IMG/VR virus record: IMGVR_UViG_3300044608_000451
Span: 1-40,825 of that record
DNA length: 40,825 nucleotides
DNA from: a virus
Strand: one strand, 5' to 3'
In this document: one piece after another, positions 1 to 21,115 of the stretch
How the letters are laid out: every line of letters starts with the position of its first letter
Numbering within the stretch: position 1 is the first letter of the stretch
Notes under the pieces: model-generated
Seen by the model: only the letters and a program-made list of their open reading frames with translations
What the model was told of the DNA's origin: nothing
The model's database searches: none
Program-made: the position numbers and the translations under genes

Positions 1-535
1 GATTTGGATAAAACTTTTGCATATAAGCAATCTTTGTATCAGGATCAAGAGGATTCTTTTTCTTATCCTGACTTCTTGAAGGAAAGATTAGATATTGTCC
101 ATCTTTATCTTGAGATGCTGCTTGTGCCGCAACGTCCATTAATTGCTGGTGTCCAATTGTTGGTGGGTTAAAACGACCAAAAGCGACCGTAAGAGTTCCT
201 TTTGTTTTGGGAACTGGAAGATATCGTGCAGGTGGTTGTTCTTGTGCTGCTGCTTGTTGCTCTGGTGCAGGTGCTTGCTGCTGAACAGGTTGCTGTTGAA
301 GTTCTGGGTCATTATACCCAGGTGATGCAATTGTTTTTTCTTTTTCAGTTTGTACTGGATCTTTACCACCAACTTTTTGACGCTTATTATAAAACTTAAG
401 TTGCCCGCCTTCAGTTTTTGCTACAAACTCTCCTTGCTTATCGTACCAACCACCATGCCCATCTCCAACAAGTCCAAGACGCTGTGCTTGCTGAGATGCG
501 GTTGCTTCTGTTATGAATTGGAAAAAACTTTTCAT
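1..535 (-). CDS. Nucleotidyltransferase with capsid-targeting N-terminus (3' end cut by window)
   Basis: Only the first 178 codons are present. Residues 1-11 (MKSFFQFITEA) resemble the T4 capsid targeting sequence of internal head proteins (MKTYQEFI...EA), and I-T-E|A fits the gp21 protease cleavage rule [LI]-x-E. Residues 12-60 are a glycine-rich small domain, residues 70-108 a flexible Gln/Pro/Ala linker, and from 113 a Rossmann-type nucleotidyltransferase begins with the HIGH-like signature GRFNPPTIGH (120-129), as in cytidylyl- and NMN-adenylyltransferases. I infer a head-packaged enzyme injected with the DNA; the substrate is unknown. Two ATGs lie in tandem (538 and 535); I chose the second because the targeting motif starts there. 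No good ribosome binding site is visible. Confidence 0.8.
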   Translation of the reverse strand, partial: MKSFFQFITEATASQQAQRLGLVGDGHGGWYDKQGEFVAKTEGGQLKFYNKRQKVGGKDPVQTEKEKTIASPGYNDPELQQQPVQQQAPAPEQQAAAQEQPPARYLPVPKTKGTLTVAFGRFNPPTIGHQQLMDVAAQAASQDKDGQYLIFPSRSQDKKKNPLDPDTKIAYMQKFYPN

Positions 536-16957: not shown

Positions 16958-18000
16958 TATTCTACTTCCAATGCTTCTTTATAAAATTCCCGTAAGAGTT
17001 TTTTAATCGTATTTTTGTCTAATTCAAACTCAGACTCTTCCACATATTTATCCAAAATACTTAACGTATCCTCTGTTGGAATTTCATCACAATTTACATC
17101 TTCATCATAGACATCAATATTCTCAATAATTTTAAGTTCTAATGGATTTACTTTAACTATTGAATCTACAAACTTATCAAACATCTTATAATCATCTCTT
17201 TGACGAACAACAATTTTAACCATTTTATCGGTCAAATGTGATGCGTCAAAATCCTTTGGATTATTATTTTCGTAATAAATTCTCTCAAACATCGTATGAG
17301 GATTTTGATAATAATCTAGTTTATAATCATCTGTATCAAAAATATGAAATCCTCTTTTATCATTTACATCATTCCAAAACATTTGGTATGGATTTCCAAG
17401 ATAAAAGATTTTGCCATCATCACTACGAGTATGATAATGTCCAGAATAAACTCTATCAAACTTTTGAAATACTTTTTTATCTAGTCCTTCTGTATGAACG
17501 TGTCCTGGATAAACTGTAAATCCATTCAGTTCAAGATGACCGAAAACTACTTTTGCTTCTGTTTCTCCAAGAAGTTCAAAAGTTTCTTTTTCATTATCAG
17601 TACATATCCAAGGAAGAAGAACTGTTTTCATTCCTTCAATGATATATTCTGTTGGTTTTGAAACTCGAACCACATTAAAATATTGTTGAAGAAGTGTATC
17701 TATTGAATTAATTTCATTACTATTTTTATAATAAGCATCATGATTTCCTACAATATTATAAACAGTAATTCCTAAATCTTGAAATCTATCATAAACATTT
17801 TCTTTTGCCCAATCGAGAGCCCAATAATCCACACCCTTACGACTATCAAAAGCATCACCCAAATGAATGACTGTTTTGATTTTGTTTTTCTTTAATGTAG
17901 GAAAAAAGATTTCATCATAAAATTTAGCAAAATATTCGTGAAATGGTTTATTTGCCTTTCTAAAATTATAATGAGTATCTGTAATTAATCCAATTTTCAT
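16957..18000 (-). CDS. 47: Recombination endonuclease subunit gp47 (Mre11/SbcD-like)
   Basis: 347 aa (T4: 339). Calcineurin-like metallophosphoesterase motifs: D8-x-H10 (ITDTHYN), GD at 48-49 (HLGDAFDSRK), GNHD at 85-88, then GHLELNG and GHYHTRSDD. It is the nuclease partner of gp46. The start overlaps gp55 as ATGA. Confidence 0.96.
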   Translation of the reverse strand: MKIGLITDTHYNFRKANKPFHEYFAKFYDEIFFPTLKKNKIKTVIHLGDAFDSRKGVDYWALDWAKENVYDRFQDLGITVYNIVGNHDAYYKNSNEINSIDTLLQQYFNVVRVSKPTEYIIEGMKTVLLPWICTDNEKETFELLGETEAKVVFGHLELNGFTVYPGHVHTEGLDKKVFQKFDRVYSGHYHTRSDDGKIFYLGNPYQMFWNDVNDKRGFHIFDTDDYKLDYYQNPHTMFERIYYENNNPKDFDASHLTDKMVKIVVRQRDDYKMFDKFVDSIVKVNPLELKIIENIDVYDEDVNCDEIPTEDTLSILDKYVEESEFELDKNTIKKLLREFYKEALEVE

Positions 18001-18482
18001 TGATATAGTTTAATTTGAATATTTTCTTTAATCGTATTGTAATCAGAAGAACTAAATGCATCACCATCTACAGAAAAAACTTGGTCGAATCCACTCTTTT
18101 CAAGAATTTTTTCTTTGATTTCCATCTGTCTTTTTTCTTTTTGAATACGACGTAAGAATGCATAATAGACAATCTGTGTAAAATACGCAAATGGATTAGT
18201 ACGTTCTACATCAAAGTTATTAATATACTGAACGCAATTTTCAACCCCATCAGAAATCATATCTTCACGAAACATATAGTTCACAAAGTTTGGACGATAT
18301 GATAAATGTGTAGCAATTTTCAAAAAACAGTCACCAAGATAATTGGGAATAATCGGATTTGGTAATCCCTTTTCCTTTGCTTGATTGACTTTAATTTTAT
18401 AATTTATCAAAGCATCGTGAAAATCTTTATTATTTACATAATGTGGATTTTTCTTTACTTTATTCATTTTTGAATTTAACAT
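17997..18482 (-). CDS. 55: Late transcription sigma factor gp55
   Basis: 161 aa (T4: 185). Sigma region 2-like sequence is visible: FREDMISDGVENCVQYINNFDVERTNPFAYFTQIVYYAFLRRIQKEKRQ. gp55 directs host RNA polymerase to late promoters with TATAAATA; exact matches occur before several structural genes here. The ATG at 18482 is used, but the only purine-rich stretch (AAGGAAAA) lies before the predicted transcription start, so the ATG at 18467 (MNKVKKNPHY) is also possible. Confidence 0.92.
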   Translation of the reverse strand: MLNSKMNKVKKNPHYVNNKDFHDALINYKIKVNQAKEKGLPNPIIPNYLGDCFLKIATHLSYRPNFVNYMFREDMISDGVENCVQYINNFDVERTNPFAYFTQIVYYAFLRRIQKEKRQMEIKEKILEKSGFDQVFSVDGDAFSSSDYNTIKENIQIKLYQ

Positions 18483-18500
18483 AACTGATTACTTTTCCTT

Positions 18501-18530
18501 ATTATAACACATAATAGCAATAGTTGACAA
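18501..18530 (-). promoter_or_regulatory. Sigma70-type promoter for gp55
   Basis: Minus strand: TTGTCA (18530-18525), 18-base spacer, TATAAT (18506-18501), with a predicted start near 18494, just ahead of gp55. Its -35 box overlaps the -35 box of the opposite-strand promoter at 18524-18552, so the two are divergent and overlapping. Confidence 0.5.
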
Positions 18531-18552
18531 CTATAAAGAATGTGTCTATAAT
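18524..18552 (+). promoter_or_regulatory. Perfect consensus sigma70 promoter, antisense orientation
   Basis: Plus strand: TTGACA (18524-18529), exactly 17 bases, TATAAT (18547-18552). Both hexamers are perfect. The predicted start near 18559 would send transcription rightward, antisense to the 129-aa gene and uvsW. No plus-strand gene follows; a small hairpin (AAGATA...TATCTT, about 18570-18586) lies just downstream. Confidence 0.55.
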
Positions 18553-18584
18553 CACTCTGTTAGGGTTGAAGATAAGTTATATCT

Positions 18585-18974
18585 TTAAATAGATTTGTAG
18601 AGTTTCTCTAAAGATATTCTGGCATCAGCAATTGAGGATAAGTAACCCATTTTAGAAGTCAGTTCACTTTTATTGGATTTTTTATTCTTCTCTCTAACAA
18701 ACTTTTGATGCATTTTAATTAAATCTTCATCCGTTATTTCAGTCATCGTTATAACTTTTTCCATATCCATCACAAACATACTGTCATCAGCAAACTTTAT
18801 CCAAGGACTTACTTTGATAGTTGATATTCCAAGTTGACGAATAGTTATGGATTCCATAGTAATAGGATTATCTAAAATTAACACAATCCTATCGTCTTCA
18901 TCACAAGGACAAACTTTTGAAAGTATTTCCTCACCTGATACTAATTTAATGATAGCATAAAAATCTTCTTCCAT
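18585..18974 (-). CDS. Sm-like small protein, paralogue A
   Basis: 129 aa. The pattern AIIKLVSGEEILSKV, then L-D-N-P, V-S-P-W-I-K-F and K-V-I-T-M-T-E-I-xxx-L-xxx-H matches the proteins at 8832 and 8630, suggesting the same small beta-barrel fold (inferred Sm/SH3-like). A basic Lys/Ser/Asn linker (REKNKKSNKSE) and a C-terminal helix follow. It starts directly after the uvsW stop with no gap and ends the uvsY-uvsW unit. Function unknown; RNA or nucleic-acid binding is possible but unproven. Confidence 0.78.
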   Translation of the reverse strand: MEEDFYAIIKLVSGEEILSKVCPCDEDDRIVLILDNPITMESITIRQLGISTIKVSPWIKFADDSMFVMDMEKVITMTEITDEDLIKMHQKFVREKNKKSNKSELTSKMGYLSSIADARISLEKLYKSI

Positions 18975-20471
18975 TTATTTCTTAAAGTCTAGTTGTATAA
19001 TTTCATAATTAAACTTTTCTTCATTATAAATCTTAATTCTTTCAATTAAATGATTTAAAGTGTAATTCTTTTTTGATTTGTAAGTAATATCGTCTGCAAT
19101 ATCATAAAGAATTGCTTTATTCTTATTTTCTCCTTTACGAAGAATTCTACCTATAGATTGTAAATTTCTTACTCTTGATTTACTTGGACTAGCAAAGACA
19201 ATATTATGAAGATTTTTAATATTAATGCCAGTACTAAATGTTCCATAAGATGCAACAATAATCGCATCGTTTTCTTTTTCGGTAATTTCCCTTACCTTTT
19301 CTCTTTCTTCAGCATCCACACCACCGTAGACAAAAAATATTTTTCTATCTTTTGCTGCTGAACTATTTATCATCTCATATAAAGGTTGTCCGTGAGTTTC
19401 AACACGACTATAAAGAATTAAAGTATTTCCTTTTAAATCTAAAGATAAGTTTTTAATAAACTTATTTCTTTTATCGTGAGAGATTAAATATTGTATTTCA
19501 TCTTCATATTCATTAAATTGATGTTCGTTATGTTTCAATAACAGAACTTTAATTTGTAGTTTTGACAAATAACCTTTTTCAATCAGTTCTTTTGTCTGTG
19601 TAACCTTGTATGAGGGACCGAATAAACCTTCTAGAACCCACTTGTGAGTCTGCGAACCATCCAAAGTACCTGTGAACCCAAAACGATACTTTGCGTTATC
19701 CATTTTCGTCATAATACCAACCAAAGACTTAGACTTAAATTGGTGTGCCTCATCTCCAATCACTACATCAAATTTCTCAAAGAAAGACCTAGGAAGATTA
19801 TAAATTGATTGCCAGGTTGTAATCACTACATTTTTATTTGTAGTCTTTTCTTTACCAGAGTAAATCTTATGACAATACTCTTCGGCATTCCACCCATAAT
19901 CATCAAAGTCTTTATACATTTGTTCTACTAATGAAGTAGTAGGAACAATCAGTAAAATATTATGTTCTTTTTCTACAAAATATCTAACAATTGAGTAAAT
20001 CATCAAAGACTTACCAGAAGCAGTTGGAGAAATTAAAAGTTTACGATTATACCTTAAAGCATCATACACAGCAGTTATTTGATAATCTCTTGGTTCGTGT
20101 CTTGATATACTTTTCATATAATCAGAGACACCTTCCATAGAAATCATCTCATTCTCCTCAAATGGAGAACCATAAAACTTATTGTCTTTAAACTCTACTG
20201 TATATTCACAGTTTTTAGCCCAAGCAACTAGTTTATCCAAAAGACCAACATAGATTGTATTGTCCCTCGTATCAAATAAATGAATTTCTCCATTCCAATA
20301 TTTACTGCGATATTGGGGCATAAAACGGGCATTTGGAACTTCAAATTTAAAATAATCTCTCAATTCGCATCTTATGTATTCTTCACTACAAATAACTTCT
20401 AAATAAATTTCATTTTTCTTTTTGATGATTATATGACTGCTAGAGATATTTTGACCCTTTATATGTTCCAT
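18975..20471 (-). CDS. uvsW: UvsW helicase
   Basis: 498 aa (T4: 503). A short N-terminal double-stranded-DNA-engaging domain (about 1-120) precedes superfamily 2 helicase motifs: HEPRDYQ (Q-motif-like), Walker A SPTASGKS (148-155), GDEAHQF (D240-H243), GFTGTLDG (motif III), and in the second lobe ATGINIKNLHNIVFASPSKS and QSIGRILRKG (motif VI). It unwinds D-loops, R-loops and branched forks and drives the switch from origin to recombination-dependent replication with UvsX/UvsY. Its first 32 bases are overlapped by the GIY-YIG gene. Confidence 0.96.
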   Translation of the reverse strand: MEHIKGQNISSSHIIIKKKNEIYLEVICSEEYIRCELRDYFKFEVPNARFMPQYRSKYWNGEIHLFDTRDNTIYVGLLDKLVAWAKNCEYTVEFKDNKFYGSPFEENEMISMEGVSDYMKSISRHEPRDYQITAVYDALRYNRKLLISPTASGKSLMIYSIVRYFVEKEHNILLIVPTTSLVEQMYKDFDDYGWNAEEYCHKIYSGKEKTTNKNVVITTWQSIYNLPRSFFEKFDVVIGDEAHQFKSKSLVGIMTKMDNAKYRFGFTGTLDGSQTHKWVLEGLFGPSYKVTQTKELIEKGYLSKLQIKVLLLKHNEHQFNEYEDEIQYLISHDKRNKFIKNLSLDLKGNTLILYSRVETHGQPLYEMINSSAAKDRKIFFVYGGVDAEEREKVREITEKENDAIIVASYGTFSTGINIKNLHNIVFASPSKSRVRNLQSIGRILRKGENKNKAILYDIADDITYKSKKNYTLNHLIERIKIYNEEKFNYEIIQLDFKK

Positions 20472-21090
20472 TATAATTATAATTCAATAATTTTTTATTA
20501 GAAAATGAACGACCTTCTTTAATATATCTTATTGCAGTATTTCGTCCTATACTGTATTTATCTACTGCCCATCTGGCAGCTTCATTTATACTTTTAAATT
20601 TTATTCCTTCAACTTCAATTTGAATTTTTTGACTATTAGATTCTAATTTTTTATTTGATATTTGTATTTTTTTCTCTTTGGTTTGATTTTTCCATCCATC
20701 TTTTACTTTTCTACTTCTCCATTTTTTATGCTCTTCACTTTCTTTTTTTCCTAACATAGATAAGGCACATTTCATTTTTGTTTCCTTTGTGTGCTTATAT
20801 CCCAAAGTCCCTTCACCACCAAAAGTCGCATTATATTCTGGATTCAATTCTTTAATTAATCTTGGTTCTTCCACATTTAATAAAAATATTTCTTCACCTT
20901 CCAATATAATTTCAAAAGAAAAATTTTCTTCACCATATTTTCTTATTGCTTTAATAATTGGTTGATTATTTTTTTTCTTTGAACGAGCAGTTGACAAATG
21001 CTGATTAAATCTACATTTTGGATTTTTTTGACTTGTGAATCCTATATAAAATTTTTGATTTAAAGTATTTGTTATTTTGTATATAACAGA
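20440..21090 (-). CDS. GIY-YIG homing endonuclease (Seg-like)
   Basis: 216 aa from MSVIYKITN. N-terminal GIY-YIG nuclease: the first motif VIYKITN and FYIGFTS (12-20 region), a following arginine in CRFNQH, and the catalytic glutamate near VEEPRLIKELNPEYN. Then a NUMOD3-like DNA-binding motif GYKHTKETKMKCALSMLGKKESEEHKK (in two adjacent pieces), a lysine-rich linker and a C-terminal helix-turn-helix (SINEAARWAV...GRNTAIRYIKEGRSF, NUMOD1-like). It lies between uvsY and uvsW, is absent in that position in T4, and overlaps the uvsW start. An upstream ATG at 21108 would add six residues. A late-promoter element lies 26 bases ahead. Confidence 0.9.
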   Translation of the reverse strand, partial: SVIYKITNTLNQKFYIGFTSQKNPKCRFNQHLSTARSKKKNNQPIIKAIRKYGEENFSFEIILEGEEIFLLNVEEPRLIKELNPEYNATFGGEGTLGYKHTKETKMKCALSMLGKKESEEHKKWRSRKVKDGWKNQTKEKKIQISNKKLESNSQKIQIEVEGIKFKSINEAARWAVDKYSIGRNTAIRYIKEGRSFSNKKLLNYNYNGTYKGSKYL

Positions 21091-21115
21091 CATAAAACAT
21101 ATTTCCATCCCATAT

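Follow-up and report, generated by a model that had tools for sequence, protein, structure and literature searches.

The window, by which we mean the whole 40.8-kb virus record (40,825 nucleotides), carries tRNAs and T4-type genes that lie almost all on the minus strand, and its closest annotated relatives are T4-like cyanophages. An Rfam search of the window at gathering score returned two tRNAs and no other RNA family. The annotated relatives have a common gene order, uvsW, Sm_like, gp55, gp47. In the window, the gp55-like late sigma factor gene (17997–18482, minus strand) is separated by a 102-bp gap (18483–18584) from the Sm_like gene (18585–18974, minus strand; 129 aa, PF16243), which cyanophage records call "methylamine utilization", and the uvsW helicase gene (18975–20471, minus strand) lies beyond it. 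A second small core protein that resembles Sm_like by eye is common to five cyanophage genomes, in addition to the Sm_like gene adjoining gp55 (P-SSM2 148061–148402 and 124371–124784).

The gap holds a pair of predicted promoters facing away from each other. On the minus strand, the gp55 promoter consists of TTGTCA (18530–18525) and, 18 nt on, TATAAT (18506–18501), which is preceded by TGT and so forms the extended −10 TGtTATAAT (18501–18509). On the plus strand, TTGACA (18524–18529) and TATAAT (18547–18552) are separated by 17 nt, and the spacing rule places the transcription start at the G 7 nt after the −10 (18559). The two −35 hexamers overlap by 5 bp inside a dyad, AGTTGACAACT (18522–18532), which yields a −35 hexamer on both strands. 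About 65 bp separate the two predicted starts (18494 and 18559). These hexamers, their spacing and the shared −35 are as the original prediction described them. It had also called the plus-strand promoter antisense to uvsW: the promoter does face Sm_like and uvsW, but it lies outside uvsW, which begins 415 nt past the predicted plus-strand start, and Sm_like is the first gene opposed. A coding product is an unsuitable explanation for the plus-strand promoter, as no plus-strand ORF of at least 40 aa starts within 18560–19200.

Translation of gp55 probably does not begin at the listed start (18482). The Shine-Dalgarno sequence of that start overlaps the predicted start site of gp55's own promoter, the ATG at 18482 is absent in some relatives (L082-type), and the ATG at 18467, the probable start, is conserved.

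Conservation of the backward-facing promoter

An exact consensus match is by itself weak evidence. Shuffled windows contain the full 12/12 consensus 0.14 times on average, with at least one in 14/100 shuffles, and the 75 promoter-like sites of the window are about as many as chance predicts (76.2). We therefore give most weight to conservation, which is what exceeds chance and makes the site a real, selected element. The search for relatives used the gp55 and Sm_like proteins and took no account of the motif. This gave 114 relatives with both genes, 80 distinct gaps and 48 clusters below 85% identity. Plus-strand TTGACA-16..18-TANAAT, and thus a sigma-70-type arrangement of TTGACA and a TATAAT-like hexamer 16–18 nt apart, is present in 80/80 distinct relatives and 48/48 clusters, where shuffles lead one to expect 0.06 and 0.04, respectively. 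The spacer is 17 nt in 35 clusters and 18 nt in 13, both of them lengths that sigma-70 accepts. The loss of the hexamers in relatives, which was to have counted against the original prediction, was thus looked for and did not occur.

The two strands are not conserved in the same way. The hexamer on the gp55 strand is TTGTCA in 46/48 clusters (96%) and TTGACA in 0/48, and the gp55 −10 is TG-extended in 44/48. Selection on the gp55 promoter alone would favour A at position 4, or at least permit it; since no A is seen there, it is for the plus direction that the perfect hexamer is kept. The −35 is shared in 39/48 lineages. In seven lineages (L018, L008, L024, L042, L058, L066 and L119) the best gp55-sense −10 lies 8 or 26–38 nt away and is uncoupled from TTGTCA, yet the plus-strand TTGACA and its 17/18-nt spacing persist. 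In S-PM2, P-HM1 and ACG-2014d, a separate gp55-direction TTGACA is visible beside the plus-strand one. There are departures: S-B68 is without the element, ACG-2014f has a degenerate form, and P-HM1 and P-RSM3 have a divergent box. A strong-looking, backward-facing promoter is kept upstream of gp55 in nearly all of the T4-like cyanophages checked. Separately, at two loci (L139 and L191) an open coding frame (...EYNDSVGVDK...) contains the full promoter-like unit, so that coding and promoter constraints coincide.

The start-site box and its dialects

What is conserved is longer than the two hexamers. In the plus sense the unit reads TTGACAA-N-GTANAATAACTCTGTNRGGGTTSA, laid out as TTGACAA, 13–14 nt and then GTANAATAACTCTGTNRGGGTTSAWRR. 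Its hexamer columns do not vary, apart from the third base of the −10, where the letters are random (A14 C15 G12 T7 over the 48 clusters). The "perfect consensus" of the original prediction consequently needs rewording: TTGACA stands, and the conserved remainder is TANAAT plus a start-site box. One free base among otherwise invariant ones is odd for a plain sigma-70 −10 and suggests that something besides sigma reads the element.

The box, AACTCTGTNRGGGTT, occupies roughly −6 to +9 relative to the predicted start, and in the window it is CACTCTGTTAGGGTTGA (18553–18569, plus strand). Its arms form an imperfect dyad and co-vary: over 50 distinct boxes, 4.14 of 5 positions are paired, and an arm-swap control gave 3.86 ± 0.06, with 0/5000 as high. 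The dyad encloses the predicted start, for which reason we prefer a DNA-level operator to an RNA hairpin. A hairpin in gp55-sense RNA was considered and rejected: the dyad has fewer exceptions when read as plus-strand pairs (wobbles) than as gp55-strand pairs, and the element is also present at sites that have no gp55-sense gene context.

The letters of the box vary between phages but agree among unlinked copies within one phage, i.e., each phage has its own "dialect", and that of the window also matches its same-genome copies. Examples are AACACTG in Syn9 and G009, AACCATG three times in S-RIM2, AACAATGTCAGATRT twice in ACG-2014d, ACCTTTG twice in S-SKS1, CACTCTG twice in G003 and ACTCTGTGGAGTTT four times in G002. 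Copies within a genome agree at 0.870 when scored only on columns that the search pattern left free, as against 0.497 ± 0.041 after permutation (0/20,000 as high). Adjacent spacers agree no better than chance within genomes, so the copies are not recent duplicates. One genome, G008, departs from this in having two dialects. S-PM2 (AACTCTG) and S-SKS1 (ACCTTTG) are both recorded on host WH7803 and differ in dialect. Since copies agree within a genome and dialects differ on the same host, the most economical interpretation is a factor encoded by the phage, which would have co-evolved with its sites. Inspection by eye of 40 small core proteins gave no clear DNA-binding candidate for this regulator.

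Other copies of the unit

A profile of the unit run over five complete genomes gives one or two strong matches in each (at least 30 bits), and the gp55 site is always among them. The next best match scores 17.4 bits, and shuffled genomes have none of at least 30 bits. Searches that used only the box, in the form proper to each genome, gave no further sites above the level of shuffled sequence. With the variable box positions left open, the pattern finds 1–4 sites in most of 26 records.

Sites away from gp55 have a different setting. Among the 101 unique ones, 77 have a sense ORF start 10–110 nt downstream, most of them at 10–60 nt, and for random positions in the same loci the figure is 45%. 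At the gp55 locus, the unit points at the end of an opposing gene in 226/238 sites, and 9% have a sense ORF downstream. The other copies thus mostly precede sense genes, and the unit is a promoter class whose gp55 copy faces backward, not a curiosity specific to gp55. Among the genes that follow the other copies are those for SegE-type GIY-YIG proteins and a ResIII/DEAD helicase (both by Pfam), one whose product looks cpeT-like by eye, and several unknowns.

Some observations stand beside this. A GIY-YIG (SegE-like) homing-type endonuclease ORF (20440–21108, minus strand) is inserted upstream of uvsW in the window and overlaps the uvsW start, and SegE-type genes in other phages are among those behind the same promoter class as the plus-strand promoter next to gp55. 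In L202, L213 and L179, another backward-facing copy opposes both of its flanking genes and adjoins a very large one (2181–2189 aa in L202 and L179). A host origin for the element was rejected: pattern matches on genome contigs are mainly unrelated Clostridia sites, and the box occurs in only 3/118, on MAG contigs. About 40 sites in Ruminococcus/Clostridia (L332–L449, e.g., L333, L335 and L346) read TTGACA-N-TATAATAACTCTGT, then TAYGTCTGTAAGTATGC...AACRGAGTTATTTTTT. These perhaps give a very short predicted transcript with a terminator-like hairpin and belong to an unrelated small RNA family.

Interpretation and comparison with known systems

The sequence, its conservation, its directionality, the regulon and the agreement of dialects within genomes are observed, and on them we base a proposal about transcription, the sign and timing of regulation, and the regulator. 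Our preferred reading, held with moderate confidence, is that the unit is a regulated sigma-70-type promoter belonging to a small regulon of the phage, and that it stands back-to-back with gp55 so that competition for polymerase delays gp55 and uvsW. The plus-strand promoter would fire with host sigma-70, and a regulator encoded by the phage would probably recognise the operator-like box at its start. Elsewhere, most copies would serve to transcribe phage genes in sense. At gp55, where the back-to-back promoters usually share a −35, RNA polymerase engaged in one direction would shut out the other. As long as the backward promoter was active, gp55 initiation would be held down, and polymerase would run antisense through Sm_like and uvsW, which would perhaps add to the delay. 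Action of the regulator on the box would then tip the balance to gp55. In E. coli bidirectional promoters, activating one direction can repress the other via RNA polymerase competition, but basal activity is usually too low for competition (PMC12825309), so promoter strength matters. The perfect −35 would fit a strong site.

More tentatively, the regulator may be an undescribed, fast-diverging phage protein with 1–4 operator-promoters per genome, and the site retained across the family, backward at gp55, may act as a NOT gate that is absent from T4. If this were true, the timing of gp55 would be the complement of the regulon's early activity.

Other explanations need to be weighed against competition between the promoters. 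The antisense RNA could itself be the product, lowering expression of Sm_like and uvsW in cis, with the shared −35 incidental. It would explain why 226/238 sites at the locus face the end of an opposing gene and why TTGACA is kept where the gp55 promoter has moved, and cyanophages offer a precedent in CfrI, over psbA in S-PM2 (PMC5931967). We nevertheless consider it unlikely. The original prediction had anticipated an RNA of 100–500 nt from near 18559, and a search for a plus-strand terminator downstream of the promoter found none in the window, Syn9, S-PM2 or P-SSM2, leaving no intrinsic terminator to bound such an RNA, and a discrete small RNA therefore lacks support. Furthermore, no sequence conservation past about +15 marks a functional RNA, and the same element precedes unrelated genes elsewhere.

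Doubtful to a greater degree is the idea that the block is mainly a binding site from which a phage regulator acts on the gp55 promoter at about −65, its sigma-70 look being a by-product. The random third −10 base within a conserved flanking box, the dialects that agree within genomes and the co-varying dyad arms would all suit such a site. However, the 17/18-nt spacing between block and TTGACA is kept at sites that lack a gp55-direction promoter and are followed by a sense gene, and where gp55 no longer has its −35 there, plus-strand TTGACA still does not vary.

We regard replication priming as improbable. Here the promoter's transcript would form an R-loop, as at T4 oriF/ori(uvsY), and UvsW, encoded next door, would unwind it. 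T4 origins do combine a promoter with an A+T-rich unwinding element and have R-loops that UvsW unwinds (PMC3016281), and the cyanophage element, a neighbour of uvsW, has GGGTT directly past its start, followed by A+T-rich DNA. Against this, the copies away from gp55 precede ordinary genes, and no GC skew switch occurs at the sites, although GC skew is uninformative on an origin here. Chance is the least probable explanation by far: an AT-rich window, in which the dyad TTGACAA necessarily makes hexamers on both strands, could produce the match (as 14% of shuffled windows do, with promoter-like sites in the window at chance number), but not its invariance over 48 diverged clusters with spacing and box conserved, nor profile matches of at least 30 bits at only 1–2 places per genome and at none in shuffled genomes.

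Cyanophages are not known to have T4's MotA/AsiA middle switch. How they time gp55, the gate to the late genes, is the question on which the element bears. A near-universal backward promoter with a shared box provides a defined cis element, a regulon and a route to the missing regulator. Competition of RNA polymerase between promoters placed back-to-back, a subject of recent work in E. coli, would thereby apply at a conserved decision point of a virus as well.

The transcriptomes of Syn9 and P-TIM40 by Doron et al. 2016 reportedly contain a novel early-gene regulatory element and host-like middle promoters. The parallel with the present unit lies in the reported sigma-70-like promoters and in a conserved regulatory element in T4-like cyanophages. 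The unit occurs only twice in Syn9, so it cannot be their general early-gene element, and its two sites may overlap with those data. No description of the element was found in the literature searched.

In T4-like cyanophages, the closest parallel to an antisense-oriented unit is CfrI of S-PM2 (Millard et al. 2010, as cited in PMC5931967). CfrI is an expressed RNA at psbA, whereas the present element is known from its sequence, opposes Sm_like and uvsW, and is family-wide. In T4 itself, middle promoters and oriF/oriG (MotA, R-loop origins; PMC3016281) share with the unit the plan of a promoter class read with a phage factor, here putative, and the UvsW context. Unlike a MotA promoter, however, the unit has a full TTGACA at −35 in 48/48 clusters and no MotA box at −30, and its extra box lies over the start site. 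It also differs from a T4-type late promoter, which has TATAAATA at −10 and no −35, in combining TANAATNACTCTG with TTGACA.

The bidirectional (pseudo-symmetric) bacterial promoters of Warman/Grainger engage RNA polymerase in either orientation, and binding in one excludes the other (PMC12825309, PMC10268837). The gp55 locus would be like them in using one DNA segment in two orientations with mutual exclusion. Promoters of that type have reciprocally overlapping, near-symmetric −10/start sites with starts 7–25 bp apart, mostly 18 (PMC10268837). The site beside gp55 differs in that it shares a −35, has predicted starts about 65 bp apart, and consists of a conserved unit that carries its own start-site box.
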